Positions 27,026 through 38,157 of a DNA stretch of 64,000 nt are shown here, piece by piece (the stretch's first letter is position 1; each line of letters begins with the position of its first letter). The DNA comes from Brachybacterium tyrofermentans (GTDB lineage: Bacteria > Actinomycetota > Actinomycetes > Actinomycetales > Dermabacteraceae), in the NCBI RefSeq assembly GCF_014897585.1, contig NZ_JABUXW010000021.1:1-64000 (forward strand). Reading direction: 5' to 3'. Under the pieces are notes generated by a model that did no database searches, was not told the origin of the DNA, and saw nothing but the letters and a program-made list of their open reading frames with translations. Position numbers and translations under genes: made by a program.

Positions 27026-28051
27026 ATGTCCCAGCAGGACTGGCTCGACAAGGACTTCTACGCGGTCCTCGGCGTCTCGAAGGATGCGAGCGCGCAGGAG
27101 ATCAAGAAGGCCTATCGCACGCAGGCCCGGAAGTACCATCCCGATCACCACCCCGATGACGCCAAGGCCGAAGAGCGGTTCAAGGGGATCGGCGAGGCGT
27201 ACTCGGTGCTCAACGACCCCGAGCAGCGCGAGCAGTACGACGCGATCCGGGCGATGGGATCCGGCGGCGCTCGCTTCTCCGCAGGCCAGGGCGGCCCCGG
27301 CGGCGCAGGCGGTGCCGGCTTCGAGGACGTCTTCTCCTCGATGTTCGGCGGCCAGGGCGGCGGCTTCCCCGGTGGGGGCCGCGCCGCGCCCGGCGGCGGC
27401 GGGAATCCCGACCTCGACGACATCATGCGGATGTTCGGCGGCCAGGGCGGCGGCTTCGGCGGCGGGCCGGCAGGCTTCCAGGGCAATCCCGGCGGGGCCC
27501 CCGCGAAGGGCCAGGACGTCTCCGCCCGCACGCGCATCAGCTTCCGCGACGCTGCGCTGGGCACCGACGTGCGCCTGAGCGTGGACGGGAAGAACGTCAC
27601 CACCCGTATCCCCGCCGGCGTGCACGACGGGCAGAAGATCCGCCTGCGCGGCAAGGGCAGGCCCGGTCCGGGCTCTGCGAAGGCCGGCGATCTGCTCCTG
27701 ACCCTCGACGTCGAGGAGCACCCCCTCTGGAGCAGTGACGGCACGAACCTGCGCCTGACCGTCCCGATCAGCTTCGACGAGGCCGTGCTCGGCACCACGC
27801 TCAGCGTGCCCCTGCTCGAGGGCGGCACCGTCGGCGTGAAGGTCGCCCCCGGCACCCCTTCCGGCCGCACGCTGCGCGTGCGCAAGAAGGGCATCGTCAC
27901 CAAGAAGACCACCGGCGACCTCCTGGTCACCGTGCAGGTCGCCGTGCCCGCGCACGTCGAGGGCAAGGCCAAGCAGGCCGTCGAGGATCTGCGCGAGGCA
28001 TTGGCCGACGAGGACCCGCGTGCGGGTCTCGCCGAGGCCGCTGCACGCTGA
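27026..28051 (+). CDS. dnaJ: J-domain co-chaperone DnaJ, lacking the zinc finger
   Basis: The 341-residue protein has a J domain (DFYAVLGVSKDASAQEIKKA, KYHPDHHPDD with the HPD motif, about 9-75), a Gly-rich linker with two copies of FGGQGGGF, and the two beta-barrel C-terminal peptide-binding subdomains (SARTRISFRDAALGTDV onwards; GDLLLTLDVEEHPLW). It contains no cysteine at all, so the CxxCxGxG zinc finger of classical DnaJ is absent; this is a CbpA/type II-like architecture occupying the dnaJ slot. SD GGAAGGAG lies upstream. Confidence 0.95.
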   Translation: MSQQDWLDKDFYAVLGVSKDASAQEIKKAYRTQARKYHPDHHPDDAKAEERFKGIGEAYSVLNDPEQREQYDAIRAMGSGGARFSAGQGGPGGAGGAGFEDVFSSMFGGQGGGFPGGGRAAPGGGGNPDLDDIMRMFGGQGGGFGGGPAGFQGNPGGAPAKGQDVSARTRISFRDAALGTDVRLSVDGKNVTTRIPAGVHDGQKIRLRGKGRPGPGSAKAGDLLLTLDVEEHPLWSSDGTNLRLTVPISFDEAVLGTTLSVPLLEGGTVGVKVAPGTPSGRTLRVRKKGIVTKKTTGDLLVTVQVAVPAHVEGKAKQAVEDLREALADEDPRAGLAEAAAR

Positions 28052-28215
28052 TCGCTGGACGCCGCGCGCGTATCTCTCGACGGCGCGCGCTGATCGCCCG
28101 ACGGTGCCGGCTGGTCGTTCCGGCCGGGTCGTGCCCCGCGGCGTCGGCCCGACTGGCACAGTAGGACAAGCACCAGGAGCAGCACCCGCCCGTTCCCCCG
28201 GAAGGAGCATCAGGC

Positions 28216-28653
28216 ATGGCAAGCCCGCAGCGGATCGATGAGCGCGCCCCCGTGTTCGTGATCTCCGTCGCCGCGGAGCTGTCCGGCAAGCACCCGCAGA
28301 CCCTGCGCCAGTACGACAGGATCGGGCTGGTCTCCCCGCAGCGCACCCGCGGACGCGGGCGCCGCTACAGCGCGCGCGACGTCGCCAAGCTCCGCGAGAT
28401 CCAGCGCCTCTCCCAGGACCAGGGCATCAACCTCGCCGGGATCAAGCGGATCCTCGAGCTGCAGGACGAGGTCGGGATCCTCGCCGACCAGCTCGAGGCG
28501 GTGCGGGAAACGCTGGAGTCGATGACCCCCACCCAGCGGCGCGTCTTCTCCGCCGACAGGGACGGCGAGATCAGTGCGCTGCGTCGAGGCGAGCGTCCGC
28601 AGCGCCGTGGCGGGGGTGCACTGGTGCTGTGGCGTCCGCAGCGCCGGCGGTGA
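28216..28653 (+). CDS. hspR: Heat-shock repressor HspR (MerR family)
   Basis: The 145-residue protein has the MerR HTH (FVISVAAELSGKHPQTLRQY, DRIGLVSPQR, about 14-43), wing RRYSARDVAKLREIQRL and a coiled coil (GINLAGIKRILELQDEV). HspR binds HAIR sites, represses the dnaK operon and uses DnaK as co-repressor. It is the last gene of the operon, 164 bp after dnaJ with GGAAGGAG before the ATG. The last 83 bp overlap the 3' end of the convergent glycosyltransferase gene. Confidence 0.95.
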   Translation: MASPQRIDERAPVFVISVAAELSGKHPQTLRQYDRIGLVSPQRTRGRGRRYSARDVAKLREIQRLSQDQGINLAGIKRILELQDEVGILADQLEAVRETLESMTPTQRRVFSADRDGEISALRRGERPQRRGGGALVLWRPQRRR

Positions 28654-29878
28654 GCTCTGAGCCGTCGGCCCCGCGGGACCTTGAACTGCGGGTCTTTGTA
28701 CTTCGCGCCTCTGTGCTTCGCGCCTCTGCCTCGCGGAACGCTGCGTCGCGACCATGGGGCTGGACGCCGGTGAGCCGGTAGATCTCCTGGAGCTTCTGCG
28801 CGACCCGGTGGATGTCGACCTCCTCCGCGGCGCTGCGCCCGGCGGCGGTCAGATCCGTGAGCTCGCCGTCCAGAAGCGCGCTCAGGCGTGCGACGACGTC
28901 CGCCGCGAAGCCGGGACCCTCGCCGGCCACCTGGTGCGTGAGCACGCCATCGGGCATCCGGTCGCGGTAGATGGGGATCGCCCGGACCAGGGTCGGAGTC
29001 TCGCAGGCGAGCGCCTCCCACAGCACGATCCCCTCGGTCTCCTCCTTGGTGAGGAAGCAGAAGGCATCGGCCCCGCAGTACGCCTCGCGCAGCTCCACGG
29101 CCGTGATGTAACCGGGGAAGCGGGCGTTCGCAGGCGCCGCGGCCAGGGCCCGGCGCACCTCCGCGGTGAGCATGCGCTCGTCGGTGCGGCCGTACCAGAC
29201 GAAGGTCACCTCGGGCATCGCCCGGGCCACCTCCACCCAGTCCACGATGCCCTTGCGCACCAGCTGCATCCCCACGCTGACGACCACCTTCGCGTCGGCG
29301 TCGAGCCCGAGCTGTTCCCGCAGCCTGCCGCGGGCCCCGGGATCAGGACGGAAGAAGCTGGTGTCCACACCGTTGGAGAGCACGTGGATCGGGGCGGAGA
29401 TCCCGTACTTCGGCGCCGAGATCAGGTCGCGGGAGTACTCGCTGGGGGTCACGACCGCGTCACCGCGGCGGTAGAGGTGGGCGATCCAGCGGCGGAACGT
29501 CGGAGCGAGCGTGTTGGCGCCCGGGAACGAATCGCGGAAGTCGTCCTCCGTGGAGTGCGCCCACACCAGCGCGGGCCGACGGCGCAGCCGCGCCCAGTGC
29601 GCGAGCAGCGGGGTGTCCGGGAACGGGGTGTTCAGGTGCACCACGTCGAAGGGCCGCAACGGGTTGGTGACCACCTCGTGGCCCAGTGAGCGCACTGCCT
29701 TCTCCTGATGCCGGATGGCGGCGCCGATGCCGGACTGCGCGGCGAGACCGGCGAGGCCGCGCGGCATCAGCACGCGCAGCGGCCTTCGGGCCGACGGCCC
29801 CTGGCCTGCGGGGCGGGAGCGGTCAGCAGGCACGTCGCGGCGGGGCCGACGGGCCTCAGCGGATGTCTTCTTGAACAT
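28571..29878 (-). CDS. GT4 family glycosyltransferase
   Basis: The 435-residue protein is a GT-B glycosyltransferase: N-terminal RVLMPRGLAGLAAQSGIGAA, acceptor region VVHLNTPFPDTPLLAHWARL, linker VLSNGVDTSFFRPDPGAR, VVVSVGMQLVRKGI and the donor-site E-x7-E motif ETEGIVLWEALACETP. Homology stops near residue 370; the last about 65 residues (EARST EARST KTRSS and beyond) are low complexity, come from a 15-nt tandem repeat and run into hspR on the other strand. GGAGA precedes the ATG, next to five 13-bp repeats. Acceptor unknown; a lipid or cell-wall glycan is likely. Confidence 0.85.
   Translation of the reverse strand: MFKKTSAEARRPRRDVPADRSRPAGQGPSARRPLRVLMPRGLAGLAAQSGIGAAIRHQEKAVRSLGHEVVTNPLRPFDVVHLNTPFPDTPLLAHWARLRRRPALVWAHSTEDDFRDSFPGANTLAPTFRRWIAHLYRRGDAVVTPSEYSRDLISAPKYGISAPIHVLSNGVDTSFFRPDPGARGRLREQLGLDADAKVVVSVGMQLVRKGIVDWVEVARAMPEVTFVWYGRTDERMLTAEVRRALAAAPANARFPGYITAVELREAYCGADAFCFLTKEETEGIVLWEALACETPTLVRAIPIYRDRMPDGVLTHQVAGEGPGFAADVVARLSALLDGELTDLTAAGRSAAEEVDIHRVAQKLQEIYRLTGVQPHGRDAAFREAEARSTEARSTKTRSSRSRGADGSELTAGAADATAPVHPRHGAADARLDAAH
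28698..28727 (+). repeat. 15-nt tandem repeat, two copies
   Basis: GTACTTCGCGCCTCT and GTGCTTCGCGCCTCT follow each other and encode the EARST repeats in the C-terminal tail of the glycosyltransferase on the minus strand. Confidence 0.8.
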
Positions 29879-29888
29879 GTAGGTCTCC

Positions 29889-29953
29889 GTTCACCGGGGC
29901 TGTTCAGCAAGGCTGTTCACCGGGGTTGTTCACCGGGGCTGTTCGCCGGGGAA
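29889..29953 (+). repeat. Five 13-bp tandem repeats before a glycosyltransferase gene
   Basis: Units at 29889, 29902, 29915, 29928 and 29941 read GTTCACCGGGGCT with 0-5 changes each. The array ends about 10 bp before the start codon at 29878, covering the 5' untranslated region between the VTT gene and the glycosyltransferase. Confidence 0.85.
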
Positions 29954-29981
29954 GTGCAGCGGGGCGGTTCGTCCGGCCTCG

Positions 29982-30755
29982 TCACCAGGGCAGGTATCGC
30001 AGGATGAGGGCGCTCACCCCGAGCCCGTAGGCGATCAGCGCCCACGGCTTGCACAGCAGGATGATCAGGACGAACGTGCGCCACCTCATCCGGGTGGTCC
30101 CGGCGATATAGCAGAGCAGGTCGTCAGGGGCGACGGGCAGGGCGATCGCGAGGGCGAAGGCCCGGGTGAAGTGATTGCTGCGGGTCCAGCCCAGGAACTT
30201 CTCCACCGTCTTGGCCGGGAAGATCCGTTCGATGAGGGCGAGCCCCACGTGCCGGGCGATCAGGAAGTTCAGCAGCGAGCCCGTGCTGACGGCGACGAAG
30301 TTGTAGACCGTCCCCTCGACCGGTCCGAACAGGACGGGACCGGCGATGACCAGCAGTCCGCCGGGCACGATCGGGAAGATGACCGAGGCCGTCGAGGCGA
30401 TCAGGAAGGCGACCGGCCCCCACGCGCCGAGCGAGGTGATGAACGCCTGGAGGTTCTCGAGCGACTGCAGGACGCCGGTCTGCAGGCCCCACCAGACCAG
30501 GGCGATGCTGATCCCGAGTCCCAGCAGCGGGGAGAGCCGGGCGGCGATGCGCACCGGATCGCGCGTCGACGCCCCGGTCCTGGCTCCTGCCGTCGCAGTA
30601 GCAGCTGCTCCGTCAGACGCCGCAGCAGACGCCGCCGCAGCGGCTGTGGCAGGTGTCCGGGCCGGTGCGCGATCGGTGGTGGTCGAGCGGCCGGTGAGCG
30701 TGCTGATGGTCGGCGCCAGGGGCGTCAGCTGCATCGGCTGCGTCGTGGTGCTCAC
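29982..30755 (-). CDS. VTT/TVP38-TMEM64 family membrane protein
   Basis: The 257-residue protein has an Ala/Thr-rich cytoplasmic N-terminus (about 1-70) and about six membrane helices carrying the VTT signatures YNFVAVSTGSLLNFLIARHV and ALPVAPDDLLCYIAGTTRM. Members of this family are lipid scramblase-like or otherwise handle membrane lipids. The start overlaps the upstream glycosyltransferase stop by 4 nt, suggesting joint action in glycolipid or lipoglycan assembly. Confidence 0.85.
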   Translation of the reverse strand: MSTTTQPMQLTPLAPTISTLTGRSTTTDRAPARTPATAAAAASAAASDGAAATATAGARTGASTRDPVRIAARLSPLLGLGISIALVWWGLQTGVLQSLENLQAFITSLGAWGPVAFLIASTASVIFPIVPGGLLVIAGPVLFGPVEGTVYNFVAVSTGSLLNFLIARHVGLALIERIFPAKTVEKFLGWTRSNHFTRAFALAIALPVAPDDLLCYIAGTTRMRWRTFVLIILLCKPWALIAYGLGVSALILRYLPW

Positions 30756-32143
30756 GCGAGCACCTCGTGCAGGACACGATCGCGCTCGTCGGCGCTCTGC
30801 AGCGACGGCATCTCCTGCAGCGACGGGATCTCCTGCGGCGACTGCAGAGCCTGCAGGGAATGCTGGGAGTCCAGGGTCTGCTCATAGACGCCGAGGACGG
30901 AGCGGCCGAAATCTCCCGCGCCGCAGGTGGCCGCCGCATGGACGACGGCCGCCTGCGACATCGCCTCGTGCAGCTCCGGGTCGTCCAGGAGGCTGTCGAG
31001 ACGCTGCGTGAACTCCGCCGTCTCGTCGATCTTCCAGCCGGTGCGGCCATCGAGCACGACGCTCTCGATCGACGGGTCCCGGCGGCACAGCAGCGGGAGC
31101 CCGCAGGCGAGGGCCTCGATGAACGTCAGCCCCTGGGTCTCGCTGCGGGAGGCGCTGACGAAGACGTCGCCGATGCGGTACCAGCGCTGCACCTCCGCCG
31201 GCTCGACCACTCCGGTGAAGACGACGCGATCGGTGATGCCCAGCTCGGCGGCGCGCGCCGCGAGCTCCGCGCGGTACGGGCCGTCGCCGACCAGCACCAG
31301 CACGGTATCCTCGCGGTCCGCGGCGGCGACCCAGTCGAGCACCTCGTCGAGGTTCTTCTCCTTCGCCAGGCGGCACACCGAGATCAGCACCTTCTGCTGA
31401 GCGGTGATGCCGAGACCGCGCCGCAGCTCGGCGGCGTCCTTCCGCTCCGCCGGGGTGAGGGCGGGGCGGAAACGCTGCAGATCCAGACCGGTGGGAACCA
31501 CGTGGACGGGCTCGAGCACCCCGTAGCCGTGCAGGAGATCCGCGACCTTCGGCGTCGGGGCGATGACCGCGTCGGTTCCCGAGAGCAGCCGGCGGGAGAA
31601 GGTCGAGACGACCTTCCGGCCGACGGTGCGGCTGGGGGAGTAGTAGTGCGTGTAGTCCTCGTAGATGGTGTGGTACGTGTGCACCAGCGGGACCCTGAGG
31701 GTGCGGGCGATGCGTCGGGCCCACACATGGGTGGAGAACTCGCACTGCGAGTGGACGATGTCGGGGCGCCAGCGCATGATCTCGCGCAGCACCCGGCGAC
31801 CGCCCGGCATCCCGATGCGGGCATGGTCGTAGAGCATCGAGGCCGAGACCGAGCCGATGCGGTACACACCGTGCTCGCTGCGGGTCCGCAGCCCAGGGGA
31901 GAGGGTCAGCACCCGGACGTCGCAGCCCAGCGCGATGAGCTCGCGACGCAGGGTCGTGACCGAGGCGACCACCCCGTTGACGATGGGTTCCCACCAGTCG
32001 GTGGTCAGCAGCACGCGCAGGGGCCGATCGGCGGAATGCCCACCGGAGGACGAGGCCGTCGGGGGCCATTGCGCGACGGTCCGGGGGCGGTGGCTGCTGC
32101 TGATCACATTCACCCCTCGAGGTTCGCACTCCGTCGACGACAT
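30752..32143 (-). CDS. GT4 glycosyltransferase (diacylglycerol glucosyltransferase-like)
   Basis: The protein of about 463 residues has the GT4 layout RPLRVLLTTDWWEPIVNGVV, RPDIVHSQCEFSTHVWARRI, HTYHTIYEDYTHYY, VVPTGLDLQRF, SVCRLAKEKNLDEVL and E-x7-E in SETQGLTFIEALACGLP. This resembles processive diacylglycerol glycosyltransferases. I chose ATG 32143 (GGGGGA upstream) over an ATG at 32227 with no signal; the true start is uncertain. The C-terminal tail has short SLQ repeats (LQALQSPQEIPSLQEMPSLQ). A 7-bp dyad TCAGACC-CA-GGTCTGA (32170-32185) lies just upstream and may be an operator. It overlaps the VTT gene. Confidence 0.86.
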   Translation of the reverse strand: MSSTECEPRGVNVISSSHRPRTVAQWPPTASSSGGHSADRPLRVLLTTDWWEPIVNGVVASVTTLRRELIALGCDVRVLTLSPGLRTRSEHGVYRIGSVSASMLYDHARIGMPGGRRVLREIMRWRPDIVHSQCEFSTHVWARRIARTLRVPLVHTYHTIYEDYTHYYSPSRTVGRKVVSTFSRRLLSGTDAVIAPTPKVADLLHGYGVLEPVHVVPTGLDLQRFRPALTPAERKDAAELRRGLGITAQQKVLISVCRLAKEKNLDEVLDWVAAADREDTVLVLVGDGPYRAELAARAAELGITDRVVFTGVVEPAEVQRWYRIGDVFVSASRSETQGLTFIEALACGLPLLCRRDPSIESVVLDGRTGWKIDETAEFTQRLDSLLDDPELHEAMSQAAVVHAAATCGAGDFGRSVLGVYEQTLDSQHSLQALQSPQEIPSLQEMPSLQSADERDRVLHEVLA

Positions 32144-32305
32144 CGCGTCCCCCGAGCGGATGAACGGGGTCAGACCCAGGTCTGATCTTTTATCAGCCTG
32201 TACGGAGCGGACTCTCATCAACGTCATGAATCGAGACTACGACCGACCCTGTCCAGGCACGACGGGGCGCGCCCGAGGTGTCGCGGAGTCTTCCCCCCTT
32301 GTGCG

Positions 32306-32803
32306 TCAGTCCGTCACCTGATAGTGAGCTGTCAGCGAGGCGGATGCCAGCTGTTGGCTGAAGATCGCGAAGCGTGCGCCGATGTGCGGGCTCTCCGGAT
32401 CCACCTCGAGCGACTCGACGGGCAGGGCGTGCACGGAGAAGACGTAGCGGTGGGGCGGACCGGCGGGCGGCTCCGGCCCGTCGTATCCCTGAGTGCCGAA
32501 GTCGTTGTGCGCCTGACGCAGGCTCGAGCTGTCGCGCGGGACGCCGAGGGGCAGGGAGCCGACATCGGCCGGGATGTCCCAGGCGACCCAGTGCCAGAAG
32601 CCCGATCCGGTGGGGGCGTCCGGGTCGAAGCAGGTGACCGCGAAGGACCGGGTGCCCTCCGGGGCACCGGACCACTGGAGATCGGGGGAGAGGTTCTCGC
32701 CGCCGAGGCCTTCCACCAGCTGCTGGGGTGCCACCTCGGTGCCGTCGGGCGTGGTGCTCGAGAGAAGGGTGAAGGAGGGGATTTCCGGTGTCGTGTGATC
32801 CAT
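32306..32803 (-). CDS. PEBP/YbhB family protein
   Basis: The 165-residue protein matches the bacterial phosphatidylethanolamine-binding-like family: LSPDLQWSGAPEGTRSFAVT, CFDPDAPTGSGFWHWVAWDI (DPDAP and HW motifs), NDFGTQGYDGPEPPAGPPHR and YVFSVHALP. The biochemical role in bacteria is unknown. TACGCT is 6 nt before the ATG, so translation is probably leaderless. It is divergent from the first ATP-grasp ligase. Confidence 0.9.
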   Translation of the reverse strand: MDHTTPEIPSFTLLSSTTPDGTEVAPQQLVEGLGGENLSPDLQWSGAPEGTRSFAVTCFDPDAPTGSGFWHWVAWDIPADVGSLPLGVPRDSSSLRQAHNDFGTQGYDGPEPPAGPPHRYVFSVHALPVESLEVDPESPHIGARFAIFSQQLASASLTAHYQVTD

Positions 32804-32873: not shown

Positions 32874-34214
32874 ATGCCTGAGAACGCCACTGACGCGCCC
32901 GTCGTCGAATTCACGCCTGTCGTCGTCGGTGGGGACATCGGTGCCTATTCCCTCGCGCGCGCCTTCCATGAGGCGTACGGGGTCCGCACCGTGGCGATCT
33001 CCCGCCTGGCGGGCTGGGTCGTGGGGACCTCCTCCCTCATCGACAACGTGCAGTGCCAGGACCCGTTCGATCCGGAGACGCTGGCCCCCGTGCTGCAGGA
33101 GGTCGCCGATGCGCATCCGGGCCGACCCCTCCTGTTGCTCGGATCGGCCGACGCGACCGTCAAGCCCATCATCCGGATCCGCGACGAGATCGGCCTGGAT
33201 CCTCGGTACATCGCCCCGTACGTCGACCTGGAGACCTTCGCCGCCGCCACCGAGAAGCAGAACTTCACGAAGCTCTGCCAGGATCTCGAGGTGGACCACC
33301 CGGGCACGGTGGTGGTCGATCTCGCCCAGGAGGTCCCCGGCGATCTCGAGGTGCCCTTCGAGTTCCCGGTGATCGCCAAGCCGGCCGAGGTCTCCGAATG
33401 GAAGCGCATCGACTTCCCGGGGAAGAACAAGGTCCACACCGTCGACTCGCCCGAGGACCTGCGGGCGCTGCTGACCGCCATCCGCGGGGCCGGGTACCGC
33501 GAGTCGATCATCGTCCAGGACCGCATCCCCGGGGATGACCAGTACATGCGGATCCTCACCGTCTACTGCGACGCCGATTCCCGTGTCCGCTTCGCCTCCT
33601 ACGGCCACACGCTGCTGGAGGAGCATGCACCGGGCGCGATCGGGAACCCGGCGGCGATCATCACCGGGGTCGACCGGGAGATGGTGGCCCAGGCGCAGCG
33701 TCTGTGCGAGCGGCTCGGCTGGACCGGCTACGCCAACTTCGACCTCAAGTACGACCGCCGCGACGGCCGCACCAGATTCTTCGAGCTCAATCCCCGCCTG
33801 GGGCGTTCGAACTACTACGTGACCGCCGGTGGTCACAACCCCGTGACCTGGTACGTCGACGAGCATCTGCGGCACGCCCTCCCCGAGCATGGGCCAGGCT
33901 CCGGGGTCGGGGAGGACGGCATCCTCCAGGATCAGCCCGAGGTGCTCTACGCCGTCGTCCCGATCTCCCTGGTGAAGCGGTACACCACCCTCCCCGAGGC
34001 CAAGGCCCGGCTGCGCCGGGCGCTGCGAGCCCGGGTGGGCAATCCCCTGCACTATCCCGGTGTGGACGACTCCCTCTCCCGGCGGCGGTACGTCCTGGCC
34101 GCCGGGCTGAACTCGGTGCTCAAGTTCCAGCGCTACTACCGACCCGAGGGCGGTGACCGGTTCAGCCGTCTGTTGCGCCGCCGCCCCCGGACGGCGCCGG
34201 GGGAGCGGGCGTGA
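32874..34214 (+). CDS. ATP-grasp ligase, D-aspartate-ligase-like (cross-bridge) 1
   Basis: The 446-residue ATP-grasp protein has VVVGGDIGAYSLARAFHEAY (about 17-36), PVIAKPAEVSEWKRIDFPGK (about 165-184), VQDRIPGDDQYMRI (about 214-227), GHTLLEEHAPGAIGNPAAII (about 244-263) and the Mg/ATP end motif GYANFDLKYD...FELNPRLGRSNYYV (about 285-315). This pattern matches Aslfm-type ligases, which add D-aspartate to the lysine or diaminopimelate side chain of peptidoglycan precursors. The neighbouring racemase (4-nt overlap) would supply the D-amino acid. TAGACT lies 6 nt before the ATG, suggesting a leaderless mRNA. Confidence 0.82.
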   Translation: MPENATDAPVVEFTPVVVGGDIGAYSLARAFHEAYGVRTVAISRLAGWVVGTSSLIDNVQCQDPFDPETLAPVLQEVADAHPGRPLLLLGSADATVKPIIRIRDEIGLDPRYIAPYVDLETFAAATEKQNFTKLCQDLEVDHPGTVVVDLAQEVPGDLEVPFEFPVIAKPAEVSEWKRIDFPGKNKVHTVDSPEDLRALLTAIRGAGYRESIIVQDRIPGDDQYMRILTVYCDADSRVRFASYGHTLLEEHAPGAIGNPAAIITGVDREMVAQAQRLCERLGWTGYANFDLKYDRRDGRTRFFELNPRLGRSNYYVTAGGHNPVTWYVDEHLRHALPEHGPGSGVGEDGILQDQPEVLYAVVPISLVKRYTTLPEAKARLRRALRARVGNPLHYPGVDDSLSRRRYVLAAGLNSVLKFQRYYRPEGGDRFSRLLRRRPRTAPGERA

Positions 34215-35014
34215 ACGGCACGGAGCCGGCCGCCGGCGGGACGGCGCATGGCGCCGCCGAGGACGAGCTCGGCGGTCGGCTCGACCCGACCACCTGGCCC
34301 GGCCCGGTCGTCGGGGTCCTGGGCGGTCTCGGGCCCGCGGCCACCTCGGTGTTCCTGGACGTGCTGATCCGCGCCACCGTGGCCCGCAGCGACCAGGAGC
34401 ACGTGGACCTGCTGGTCTCCCAGCACTCCTCGACCCCGGATCGGACCGCGGCGATCCTCGACCCCGACGCCACCGATCCCGGACCCGTGATCCTCCGCGA
34501 TGCCGTCATGCTCCAGCGCGCCGGGGTGGACATGCTCGTCCTGCCGTGCAACACGGCCCATCACTACGCACGCCAGGTGGAATCGGCCACGACGATCCCT
34601 CTGCTGAGCATCGTCGAGACCACCGCTCAGGCCGCTGTCGAGAGAGCGGGCACGGCGCCCATCGCGGTGTTCGCGACCGAGGGCAACATCCACGCTCGGG
34701 TGTACCAGGAGGCGATCCTCGCCCACGGCGGCACGCCTCTGGTCCCCGACCATGCGGTGCAGGAGGACATCAACCACCTCATCTACGGGCAGGTCAAAGC
34801 CGGGATGCCGGTGGACCTGGACCTCTTCGAATCCTGCATCGAGCGGGTGCTCGCGCAGGGGGCCGGCGTCGCCGTGCTCGGCTGCACCGAGCTGTCCGTC
34901 GTCTACGACCAGCACGGATATCGCGGCGATGCCCGCCTGGTCGACTCCCTGACCGAGCTCGCCCGGATCACGGTGCGGCAGGCCGGCAAGGAGCTCACCG
35001 AGCTCTTCCGGTGA
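34211..35014 (+). CDS. Aspartate/glutamate racemase family protein
   Basis: The 267-residue protein has VVGVLGGLGPAATSVFLDVL near the N-terminus, the first catalytic cysteine in MLVLPCNTAHHYARQV, PIAVFATEGNIHARVYQEAI and the second cysteine in VAVLGCTELSVVYDQ. Both cysteines of the PLP-independent two-base racemase mechanism are present. GTG start overlaps the ligase stop (GTGA), so the pair is translationally coupled. Likely substrate is aspartate or glutamate, giving the D-form for the flanking ligases. It differs from the RacE/MurI consensus and looks closer to aspartate racemases (YgeA type). Confidence 0.86.
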   Translation: MNGTEPAAGGTAHGAAEDELGGRLDPTTWPGPVVGVLGGLGPAATSVFLDVLIRATVARSDQEHVDLLVSQHSSTPDRTAAILDPDATDPGPVILRDAVMLQRAGVDMLVLPCNTAHHYARQVESATTIPLLSIVETTAQAAVERAGTAPIAVFATEGNIHARVYQEAILAHGGTPLVPDHAVQEDINHLIYGQVKAGMPVDLDLFESCIERVLAQGAGVAVLGCTELSVVYDQHGYRGDARLVDSLTELARITVRQAGKELTELFR

Positions 35015-35033
35015 CTCGTCGGCGCCCCGCGGC

Positions 35034-35069
35034 GACTGGTGGAGAAGCGCGGACTGGTGGAGAAGCGCG
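35034..35069 (+). repeat. Exact 18-bp tandem duplication
   Basis: GACTGGTGGAGAAGCGCG occurs twice without change (35034-35051, 35052-35069) in the short gap between the racemase and the stop codon of the convergent ligase. Confidence 0.9.
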
Positions 35070-35071
35070 GA

Positions 35072-36367
35072 TCAGAAGCCCGAATCCGTCGGCCGCGGAT
35101 AATGGCGCAGGAACTTGCGCACGTGGTTCAGCCCGACGATCCGTGCGTAGCGGCGCGCCCAGCTGCCGTCTGCGGGATAGGTCCACGGATTGCGCACCCC
35201 GCGCCGGGCGACGGTGCGCACCCAGCGCTTCAGCGCCGGATCGCGCAGGTAGCGCATCAGCAGCGGCATCGGGACCAGGGAGTAGAGGATCTCGTCGAAC
35301 TCGGTGACCGGTTCGAGAAGGCGGTGCTCGATCGCGTCGGCCACCACGAAGCGGGACACGTTCGCCCCCGCACTGGAGACGTAGAAGTTGTTGCGCCCGA
35401 TGCGCGGGTTCACCTCGAAGAACTTCCAGGTCCCGTCGCGGGGATCGCGCTTCACGTCGAAGTTCGCGTAGCCCCGGTAGCCCGTCGCCTCGAGCAGACG
35501 GCGCGCCTGGTCGAGGGCGTCGTCGAAGGGGAGGGTGATCATCGCGGCGGGTCGGCCCAGCGCGTCGGGCGTGTGCTCGCCCAGCAGCACCCGGGCCGAG
35601 CACAGGAGCGTCACCCGCCCGGCGGCATCGGTGTAGGCGGTGATCGAGCCCTCGGCGGTGTCGTCGCCGGGGATCAGCTCCTGGACGACGAGGCGACCGG
35701 CGTACCCGGCCGCAGCGATCGCCCGCACCAGATCGTCCAGCTCCTGCGGGGTCTCGAGGAACCACACCTTCTTCTTGCCCTCGAAGCGCACCCCGGCCAT
35801 GTCCGCGGTGCGGGCCGCCTTCATCACCACGGGGAAGGGCAGCTCGGTGCGCGGGGGCTGCCAGTCCGCGTCCCGGGGCGTCCCCAGATCGATGACCTCC
35901 GTGCGCGGGGTCGCCACCCCGTGATCGGTGCACAGCCGGGCGAACTCCGCCTTGTCCGAGAGGCGCTCGAGCACATCGGCCTCGAGGATCGGCATGACGA
36001 AGTGCGGCTCCAGCTGCTCGCGATGATCGCTCATCAGCTGCACCAGGGAATCAGCATTGGCCAGCAGCAGCTGGGGCCGCACCCCGCCGCGCTCGCGCGC
36101 GAGCTCGACGGCGGCGGCGACCAGGTCCTCGTCGCTCGCGGAGCCTCCGAGCTCGATGACCTCGCAGGTGACCGAGCGGCGCATCGGCTCGATGCCCACC
36201 TTCGTGAGCACCGTCGCCACCACGCCGTACTCCTCGTGGAAGGCGCGGGCGAGGGTGTAGACGCCGAGCCCGGACCCCAGCAGGACCAGGTCGAAGCTCT
36301 CCGAGCTCGACGACGGCCCGAGGTCGGACGCGGTGGGACGGGGAGAGGGCGTCTCAGGTGCTGACAT
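35072..36367 (-). CDS. ATP-grasp ligase, D-aspartate-ligase-like (cross-bridge) 2
   Basis: The 431-residue paralogue of the ligase at 32874 has LVLLGSGLGVYTLARAFHEE, LSDKAEFARLCTDHGVATPR, PFPVVMKAARTADMAGVRFE, VVQELIPGDDTAEGSITAY and GYANFDVKRDPRDGTWKFFE then VNPRIGRNNFYV. It keeps the ATP-grasp ends but differs in the substrate loop (TADMAGVRFEGKKK instead of VSEWKRIDFPGKNK), as expected if it uses another D-amino acid or acceptor. Start ATG 36367 is 7 nt after TAGGAT. The pair of ligases around one racemase suggests a two-residue interpeptide bridge. Confidence 0.82.
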   Translation of the reverse strand: MSAPETPSPRPTASDLGPSSSSESFDLVLLGSGLGVYTLARAFHEEYGVVATVLTKVGIEPMRRSVTCEVIELGGSASDEDLVAAAVELARERGGVRPQLLLANADSLVQLMSDHREQLEPHFVMPILEADVLERLSDKAEFARLCTDHGVATPRTEVIDLGTPRDADWQPPRTELPFPVVMKAARTADMAGVRFEGKKKVWFLETPQELDDLVRAIAAAGYAGRLVVQELIPGDDTAEGSITAYTDAAGRVTLLCSARVLLGEHTPDALGRPAAMITLPFDDALDQARRLLEATGYRGYANFDVKRDPRDGTWKFFEVNPRIGRNNFYVSSAGANVSRFVVADAIEHRLLEPVTEFDEILYSLVPMPLLMRYLRDPALKRWVRTVARRGVRNPWTYPADGSWARRYARIVGLNHVRKFLRHYPRPTDSGF

Positions 36368-36435: not shown

Positions 36436-38157
36436 TCAGCGCGTCAGGCGCATCCAGAGGGCGCTGTCCGCGGCGACCTGCTCCGCACCGTCAGGGCCGG
36501 TGGGAACCGAGCGCAGCAGCACCTCGTAGCCCTGGTCATCGGTGACCTCGGCCAGCGGGACCGGGGCGGACGTCGTGTTGACGACGACCCGGAGATCACC
36601 GCGATCGAGGACCAGCACCCCGTCGGGCGCCGTCTGCGCGAAGACCACGCCGGCGGCCTCGCTCTGGACCCCCAGCTGCAGCTTCCGGCGCAGGTGCAGC
36701 GCCGAGCGGTACATCTCCAGCACGGAGCCATCCACCCCGAGCTGCTGGTCGACCGCGAGCGGACCGAACTCCGCGGGCTGCGGAAGCCAGCTCTCGCCGG
36801 TCGAGGAGAACCCGTAGGCCGGGGCATCCTGGACCCACGGCAGTGGCACGCGGCAGCCGTCGCGACCGGGCACACCGGCACGCAGATGCGCGGGGTCCTC
36901 GCGCAGCTCATCGGGGATGTCGCTCACCTCCGGCAGCCCCAGCTCCTCGCCCTGGTACAGGTAGGCGGAACCGGGGAGGGAGAGCATGAGCAGGGTCGCG
37001 GCACGGGCTCGACGCAGTCCCAGCTCGGCATCGGGCACCTCATCGCGGGCCAGGCCCTCGCCGAAGCGGTGGTCCGGGGCGAAGCCGTAGCGGGAGGCGT
37101 GGCGGATCACGTCGTGGTTCGAGAGCACCCAGGTGGTGGGTGAGCCCACCGCATCGGCGAGGGCGAGTGGCTTCTCGATCGCGGCGCGCATCGTCTCCAC
37201 GCCCCAGCGGGCCTGGAGGAAGCCGAAGTTGAAGGACTGGTGCGCCTTCTCGTCGCCGATGTACAGCGGCAGGCGGTGCTCCGGGATCCACGCCTCGAGC
37301 ACCATCATCCGGTCACCCTCGTAGGAGTCGAGGATCGGGCGCCACTCGCGGTAGATGTCCAGCACGCCGTCGTTGTCGAAGTAGACGGGCACCTCGCCCT
37401 CGGGGATGTCGATCAGACCTTCGGCATTCACGGTCGCGTCCGGCAGGCCCTCGGGCTTGACCATGCCGTGGGCGACGTCCACCCGGAAGCCGTCGGCCCC
37501 GCGGTCCAGCCAGAACCGCAGCACGTCCTGCATGAGCTCGTGCACGCGCGGGTTCTTCCAGTTCCAGTCGGGCTGGCTGGTGTCGAAGATGTGCAGGTAC
37601 CACTGGCCGGGTGTGCCGTCCGCCTCGGTGATCCGGGTCCAGGCGGGGCCGTGGAAGATCGAGGTCCAGTTGTTCGGGGGCAGCTCGCCGCTTACGCCCC
37701 GGCCCTCGGCGAACATGTACAGGTCCCGTTCGGGGGAGCCGGGGGCGGCGGCCAGCGCCTCCTGGAAGAGCACGTGCTCGCTCGAGGAGTGGTTGGGCAC
37801 GATGTCGACGATGACCTTCAGGCCCAGCTCATGGGCGCGGGCCATCATCTCGTCGGCGTCGGCCAGGGAACCGAAGCGGGGGTCGACGTCGGTGTAGTCG
37901 GCGACGTCGTAGCCGCCGTCGTGCTGCGGGGAGGTGTAGAAGGGCGAGAGCCAGATCGCATCGACGCCGAGGTCGCGCAGGTAGGGGAGGTGCGCGGTGA
38001 CTCCGGGGAGGTCGCCCATGCCGTCGCCGTCCGCGTCGGCGAAGGAGCGGGGATACACCTGGTAGACGACGGCGTCGCGCCACCACTGGGCGGTCACCGC
38101 CTTACCGGTCGAGGAGGTGGTCGCGCTGGGGGCGGAGGTCGAGATCGGGGAGGTCAT
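36436..38157 (-). CDS. GH13 alpha-glucosidase (oligo-1,4/1,6 type)
   Basis: The 573-residue cytoplasmic enzyme has the GH13 conserved regions: VIVDIVPNHSSSEH (I), ADGFRVDVAHGMVK (II, catalytic Asp), MMVLEAWIPEH (III, catalytic Glu) and WVLSNHDVIRHASRYG (IV, second Asp). It starts WWRDAVVYQVYPRSFADADG, typical of alpha-glucosidases acting on maltose and short maltodextrins. It is the last gene of the maltodextrin operon, after a 139-bp gap carrying a 32-nt duplication. Confidence 0.92.
   Translation of the reverse strand: MTSPISTSAPSATTSSTGKAVTAQWWRDAVVYQVYPRSFADADGDGMGDLPGVTAHLPYLRDLGVDAIWLSPFYTSPQHDGGYDVADYTDVDPRFGSLADADEMMARAHELGLKVIVDIVPNHSSSEHVLFQEALAAAPGSPERDLYMFAEGRGVSGELPPNNWTSIFHGPAWTRITEADGTPGQWYLHIFDTSQPDWNWKNPRVHELMQDVLRFWLDRGADGFRVDVAHGMVKPEGLPDATVNAEGLIDIPEGEVPVYFDNDGVLDIYREWRPILDSYEGDRMMVLEAWIPEHRLPLYIGDEKAHQSFNFGFLQARWGVETMRAAIEKPLALADAVGSPTTWVLSNHDVIRHASRYGFAPDHRFGEGLARDEVPDAELGLRRARAATLLMLSLPGSAYLYQGEELGLPEVSDIPDELREDPAHLRAGVPGRDGCRVPLPWVQDAPAYGFSSTGESWLPQPAEFGPLAVDQQLGVDGSVLEMYRSALHLRRKLQLGVQSEAAGVVFAQTAPDGVLVLDRGDLRVVVNTTSAPVPLAEVTDDQGYEVLLRSVPTGPDGAEQVAADSALWMRLTR

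Follow-up and report, generated by a model that had tools for sequence, protein, structure and literature searches.

A ligase–racemase cassette of Brachybacterium, one of two alternatives at a fixed chromosomal site, probably builds a short acidic cell-wall bridge

Introduction

In Lactococcus lactis, the ligase AslA is described as joining D-aspartate (D-Asp) to the stem-peptide lysine via a beta-aspartyl phosphate, and RacD, encoded in the same operon as aslA, as supplying the D-Asp (PMC4155827). The studies we found that treat acidic bridges at the level of genes deal with lactic acid bacteria. Cross-bridge types have long been used in actinobacterial classification, and serotype-like allelic exchange is known from polysaccharide loci, where alternative gene sets occupy one site between conserved flanks. 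Here we describe a locus in a 64,000-nucleotide stretch of Brachybacterium tyrofermentans DNA (contig NZ_JABUXW010000021.1, positions 1 to 64,000; hereafter the window), in which two related ATP-grasp ligases, lig1 and lig2, stand together with an amino acid racemase, and whose three genes probably build a short acidic cell-wall bridge. A preliminary description of this DNA had already recognised two ligase-like paralogues and a racemase, and both gene content and coordinates bear this out. What could not be seen from the window alone is that this cassette and a second one replace each other at a constant position in the chromosome. In the reading that we favour, with a probability of roughly 60%, the cassette would build an A4gamma bridge, the racemase making D-Asp, lig1 adding it and lig2 adding D-glutamate (D-Glu).

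Results

Two alternative cassettes at one chromosomal site

Among the 58 genomes examined, that of the window included, 36 belong to Brachybacterium, and all 36 contain at least two ligase matches. The arrangement of the window, lig1–racemase–lig2 (cassette A), is found in 14 of these, the window included, and a different one, cassette B, in 20; the remaining two (G001 and G003) are too fragmented for the architecture to be read. Cassette B consists of two tandem lig2-like genes, each 48–52% identical to lig2, with no adjacent racemase. Racemase orthologues of at least 61% identity are present in 14/14 type-A and in 0/20 type-B genomes. Retention of the racemase elsewhere in type-B genomes was rejected, a whole-genome search of the 20 having yielded no match above 31% identity.

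The two cassettes have shared flanks. The second of the glycosyltransferase genes to the left is next to the cassette in every one of the other 33 loci that could be read (13 of type A and 20 of type B), and the PEBP and GH13 genes in 29 and 28 of the 33, respectively, some of these loci lying on stretches that end early. The breakpoints are evident in pairs of close genomes: between B. avium (A, L034) and B. vulturis (B, L053), the flanks match at 88.9% and 87.7% identity, and within the 3.9 kb between them the only matches are ligase-to-ligase, at 70–72% over at most 733 columns. Likewise, G013 (A) and G015 (B) share 90% identity on each side of the cassette.

In a tree of 63 sampled ligases, each cassette component forms a single group, namely the type-A lig2 (nine rows, Shimodaira–Hasegawa-like approximate likelihood ratio test (SH-aLRT) 95), the Dermabacteraceae lig1 (nine rows, 100), the type-B orthologue of lig2 (eight rows, 100) and the second type-B ligase (seven rows, 100), and the type-A lig2 and its type-B orthologue are sister groups (99). 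On a tree of the flanking genes from 37 loci, with L175 omitted for having too few columns, three rows less than half filled and the Dermabacter-like L176 scored as type A though no lig2 lies nearby, the A/B labels imply no fewer than 10 changes, seven of them forced by well-supported branches; shuffled labels need 12.4 on average and are as low in 57 of 500 cases. On a tree of rpoB, which in B. faecium lies more than 1 megabase from the cassette, nine changes are needed among 27 genomes (8–9 in bootstraps, six forced, shuffled mean 9.1), 27 of the 29 loci having passed the frame filter and G019, a fragment only, being omitted. The nearest rpoB relative of the window genome is a type-B genome (94/91), and B. 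avium and B. vulturis are grouped together at 100/100 with one further genome; the rpoB and flanking-gene trees disagree in some details. Since the gene lineages are coherent and yet spread almost randomly over the species, cassettes A and B, as alternatives at one chromosomal site, seem to have taken each other's place there repeatedly.

In one assembly (G006, contigs C371 and C280), type-A lig1 is present twice, with 91% and 88% identity to the window gene; given 6% contamination, the assembly may be mixed. When 47 genomes of the family were searched, further racemase carriers were found in related genera. A lig2-type gene, a lig1-type gene and a racemase are found in one co-directional row in Xylanimonas cellulosilytica (L260) and Isoptericola halotolerans (L135 and L137), and two lig2-type genes without a racemase in Isoptericola cucumis (L123) and Xylanimonas oleitrophica (L119), which suggests that a choice between A and B may exist in a second family as well.

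Two classes of ligases

The two ligases of the window are paralogues with 37% identity over 417 columns. In agreement with the ATP-grasp motifs noted in the preliminary description, the expected ATP-grasp residues are present in both by alignment, and confident models predict an ATP-grasp fold for each, the closest of the listed Protein Data Bank (PDB) entries being 2pn1 and PylC. A ligase of D-Asp or D-Glu bridges is absent among the PDB matches listed for the models, and a search of the PDB with the lig1 sequence gave no significant relative (best E 0.59). The family libraries name neither protein: in Pfam, lig1 has a single match under its cut-off and lig2 a single match just over it (CPSase_L_D2, 20.2 vs 19.8), and no NCBIfam model comes near its cut-off for either. 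A relative of lig1 is the ligase of Latilactobacillus curvatus (31.8% identity over 80%, E 1e-47), whose gene comes third in a row after aspS and an amino acid racemase gene; the listed neighbours of the ligase in L. fermentum and L. crispatus include no racemase. The lactobacillus ligases compared are plasmid-borne and annotated as carboxylate–amine ligase or hypothetical protein, and the record of a related Subdoligranulum ligase carries no annotation.

For a broader comparison, ligases were sampled from the best 80 of 582 confirmed loci, from 79 stretches chosen among the listed matches of a search in which 161 of 297 genomes had a match, and from 20 further stretches; thinning of 273 sequences left 199, which with 23 unthinned additions gave a tree of 222 ligases. 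A single branch, selected as the best separator (local support 0.987), places all 50 ligases that are immediately followed by a co-directional racemase gene on the side of lig1, and none of the 149 sampled ligases on the lig2 side has such a racemase. The lig1 side also includes 23 ligases not immediately followed by such a gene, although in four cases a racemase lies within 2.5 kb. The ligases of L. curvatus, L. fermentum, L. crispatus and Subdoligranulum are also located on the lig1 side (0.996). In the IQ-TREE analysis of 63 ligases, the lig2 clade is supported (SH-aLRT 98), and the racemase-linked ligases fall outside it, split over more than one group, with those of two Bifidobacterium-like genomes grouping with the lactobacilli. 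The two ligases had initially both been likened to the Aslfm type; kinship supports this for lig1, whose relatives include presumed D-Asp ligases of lactobacilli, among them the racemase-linked one of L. curvatus, and lig2 belongs to the other clade.

The two ligases, previously suggested to differ in the substrate loop, do differ at class-specific positions, where lig1 and lig2 have Ser312/Asn326, Ser91/Asn104 and Arg239/Thr253, respectively. Position 312 (lig1 numbering) is Ser in 50/50 racemase-linked ligases, likewise in 4/4 of the lactobacillus and Subdoligranulum proteins, and Asn in 145/149 lig2-type ligases.

Within the lig1 side, one group that lacks racemases comprises L242, from Beutenbergia cavernae with its L-Glu bridge, together with L234, L237–L240 and L248, and these are possibly L-Glu ligases. 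The Beutenbergia enzyme has Ala at position 227 and Gln at position 262.

Organization of the locus

The lig1 and racemase genes overlap by 4 bases, in line with the proposed coupling of the racemase to the first ligase, and the racemase has two catalytic cysteines equivalent to those in 1jfl. The lig2 gene is convergent to both, its end separated from the racemase gene by 57 bases. The racemase is a member of PF01177 and TIGR00035 with scores over the cut-offs. To the left of the cassette (27026–32803) are genes for DnaJ, an HspR-like MerR-family regulator, two GT4 glycosyltransferases, a VTT-domain protein and the PEBP protein, and the glycosyltransferase adjoining the PEBP gene is found next to cassettes of both types.

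Table 1 Features of the cassette and its immediate flanks in the window
Feature	Description	Position	Strand
lig1	ATP-grasp ligase, 446 amino acids; putative D-aspartate ligase	32874..34214	+
racemase	Aspartate/glutamate racemase family, 267 amino acids, GTG start, Cys113/Cys225; putative source of D-Asp	34211..35014	+
lig2	ATP-grasp ligase paralogous to lig1, 431 amino acids; putative D-glutamate ligase, perhaps acting second	35072..36367	-
left flank	PEBP-family protein, outside the exchanged region	32306..32803	-
right flank	GH13 alpha-amylase-family enzyme, outside the exchanged region	36436..38157	-

Discussion

The likely route to the bridge would begin with the racemase converting L-Asp to D-Asp. 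Given the kinship to the ligases of lactic acid bacteria, lig1 would then perform the AslA reaction on diaminopimelic acid, activating D-Asp with ATP and joining it to the side amino group of meso-diaminopimelic acid (mDpm) in the stem peptide. As a D-Glu-selective paralogue, lig2 would add D-Glu, supplied by the housekeeping MurI, onto the D-Asp. Relatives with cassette B, having neither racemase nor lig1, would produce a Glu-only bridge with their two lig2-type ligases, and the cassettes would move between species via recombination in the flanks. That bridge chemistry in Brachybacterium behaves as an allelic trait exchanged horizontally, with two ancient cassettes switching it between a D-Asp/D-Glu and a Glu-only form, we consider slightly better than an even bet, and pressure from wall-cutting enzymes is perhaps behind the switching.

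Wall chemistry offers a comparison of Asp in the stated composition with lig1 and racemase in the genome for 15 taxa, as given in their descriptions (PMC3035206, PMC6090031, PMC10581053, PMC3035249, PMC3035225, PMC3035217, PMC3035214, PMC3035266 and PMC8878594). Asp is reported for five of seven carriers (Cellulomonas flavigena, X. cellulosilytica, B. avium, A. bogoriensis and A. ferrariae) and for two of eight non-carriers, the other six, with no Asp in the stated type, being B. faecium, B. vulturis, S. keddieii, Kytococcus sedentarius, Beutenbergia cavernae and A. subterranea. The two thus agree in 11 of 15 taxa (Fisher two-sided p = 0.13); Jonesia denitrificans, B. huguangmaarense (Asp), A. 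fermentans, Pengzhenrongella (D-Glu), Devriesea and Dermabacter stand outside the count. The cleanest pair, described in the same paper and by the same method, is B. vulturis (cassette B, no Asp stated) and B. avium (cassette A, Asp). Ligases of the lig2 class are the sole class in seven named taxa of known wall, and five of these (S. keddieii, A. subterranea, K. sedentarius, B. faecium and B. vulturis) have Glu and no stated Asp, the misfits being A. solisilvae and B. nesterenkovii, which suggests D-Glu as the substrate of the class.

Several observations weigh against the proposed D-Asp–D-Glu bridge and its order of assembly. The agreement with wall Asp is suggestive only. No Asp is reported for B. 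equifaecis with cassette A or for A. carbonis with lig1 and racemase, the latter with D-Glu reported, and Asp is reported for B. nesterenkovii with cassette B and, as L-Asp, for A. solisilvae with lig2 only; the method is no excuse for these misfits, because thin-layer chromatography was also used for B. avium and B. vulturis, both of which fit. The earlier match to dicarboxylic A4gamma bridges is supported insofar as Asp is reported in the wall of some carriers, with B. equifaecis as a carrier reported without it. The Ser/Asn contrast could mark clades, that is, ancestry instead of specificity, and the A. ferrariae ligase is divergent, with Asn at 91, Cys at 312 and its racemase on the other strand. 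The bridges ascribed to Brachybacterium, mDpm-D-Asp-D-Glu and mDpm-D-Glu2, would match cassettes A and B, respectively; a search of the open-access literature for a paper on Brachybacterium with D-Asp-D-Glu found none. Finally, K. sedentarius, with an L-Lys-Glu2 wall, has a single lig2-type ligase match (L254), and X. cellulosilytica, with L-Lys-D-Asp, has two matches, one of each type. Ligase number alone therefore does not give the bridge length, or support the original suggestion that two ligases add two successive residues, these two species breaking a rule of one residue per ligase. In K. sedentarius, both residues may be added by a single enzyme, or there may be another, unrelated one.

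The same two species lend some weight to an alternative in which the bridge is acidic and the roles differ, either with lig2 acting first on diaminopimelic acid and lig1 capping, or with one ligase adding both residues and the other serving another role. In addition, single lig2-type ligases, such as those of Cellulomonas loci, would need the diamino acid as their acceptor, which means that enzymes of this class can work first. Against this alternative, the order ascribed to the Brachybacterium bridge places D-Asp next to mDpm. What speaks for lig2 as the second enzyme is a Met-Arg pair (lig1 225–226), intact outside the Dermabacteraceae in 6/6 lig1 and 15/15 lig2-type ligases compared (10 from single-ligase and five from two-ligase loci) and altered in most type-A lig2 proteins (intact in 3/9) and all of their type-B orthologues (0/8); the second type-B ligase retains it in 5/7, and the loss varies inside the lig2 lineage. 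In the window lig2 (35648–35653), Glu-Gly replaces the Met-Arg of most ligases just after the GDD loop. The change is weakly consistent with a new acceptor, that is, with the second position, yet both ligases of two-ligase Promicromonosporaceae loci keep the pair and the type-B orthologue keeps the Arg in 7/8, which makes the argument about order weak. Altogether, we regard the exchanged roles as unlikely, at about one chance in five, and retain D-Asp addition by lig1 followed by D-Glu addition by lig2.

It is less probable still that the ligases serve to make another acidic peptide or cap, for example one attached to a cell-wall polymer or to a secondary metabolite, and that the link to peptidoglycan is a coincidence. 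The glycosyltransferase and amylase-family genes flanking the locus would suit such a function, as would wall chemistry agreeing in no more than the 11 taxa. However, lig1 is akin to lactobacillus ligases, and in lactic acid bacteria D-Asp is known to enter peptidoglycan (PMC4155827); a ligase is present in 192/193 genomes of the family of Cellulomonas G163; and the genome of Intrasporangium calvum, with a reported triglycine bridge (PMC3035309), has no ligase match.

The product of the racemase also needs consideration, as the cysteate racemase model NF052483 is over its cut-off of 190 for the window racemase (197), a further point against D-Asp, and for the ligase-linked racemase of C. flavigena (246.7). 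Since the racemase beside the L. curvatus ligase scores 238.7 with TIGR00035 and 185 with NF052483, the models do not cleanly separate these enzymes, and a cysteate racemase as the meaning of the match was rejected because it extends to C. flavigena, whose bridge is described as containing D-Asp. With the same evidence opposing it, and with a second, MurI-like racemase-family match (27%) in the own genome, D-Glu or D-cysteate as the product used by lig1 is very improbable. As the NF052483 equivalog is the cysteate racemase CuyB, public annotation may label such genes cysteate racemase.

If the favoured reading is true, the division between the racemase-linked and lig2 classes would provide a gene rule helping to predict acidic bridge chemistry from genomes, and would single out a candidate class of D-Glu bridge ligases, for which we found no description in the open-access literature, searched by titles and abstract openings only, which is no proof of absence. 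It would also mean that closely related species exchange a marker held to be stable, and this could account for differences in bridge type within genera.

In its composition, the locus resembles AslA-RacD of L. lactis and Aslfm of Enterococcus faecium in combining an ATP-grasp ligase with an adjoining amino acid racemase, a likeness drawn through the kinship of lig1 with the L. curvatus ligase. PylC of the pyrrolysine pathway, solved with L-lysine-N-epsilon-D-ornithine, is more distant, with 13% identity, other substrates and no link to peptidoglycan. Unlike in the pair of lactic acid bacteria, the racemase here follows lig1 and is faced by a second ligase of another clade, the expected acceptor is meso-diaminopimelic acid, and a rival cassette exists at the same site. 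In this last respect, the locus follows serotype-type exchange, in which alternative gene sets are swapped at one site through conserved flanks, with the difference that the genes exchanged here would govern peptidoglycan-bridge chemistry instead of that of a surface polysaccharide.

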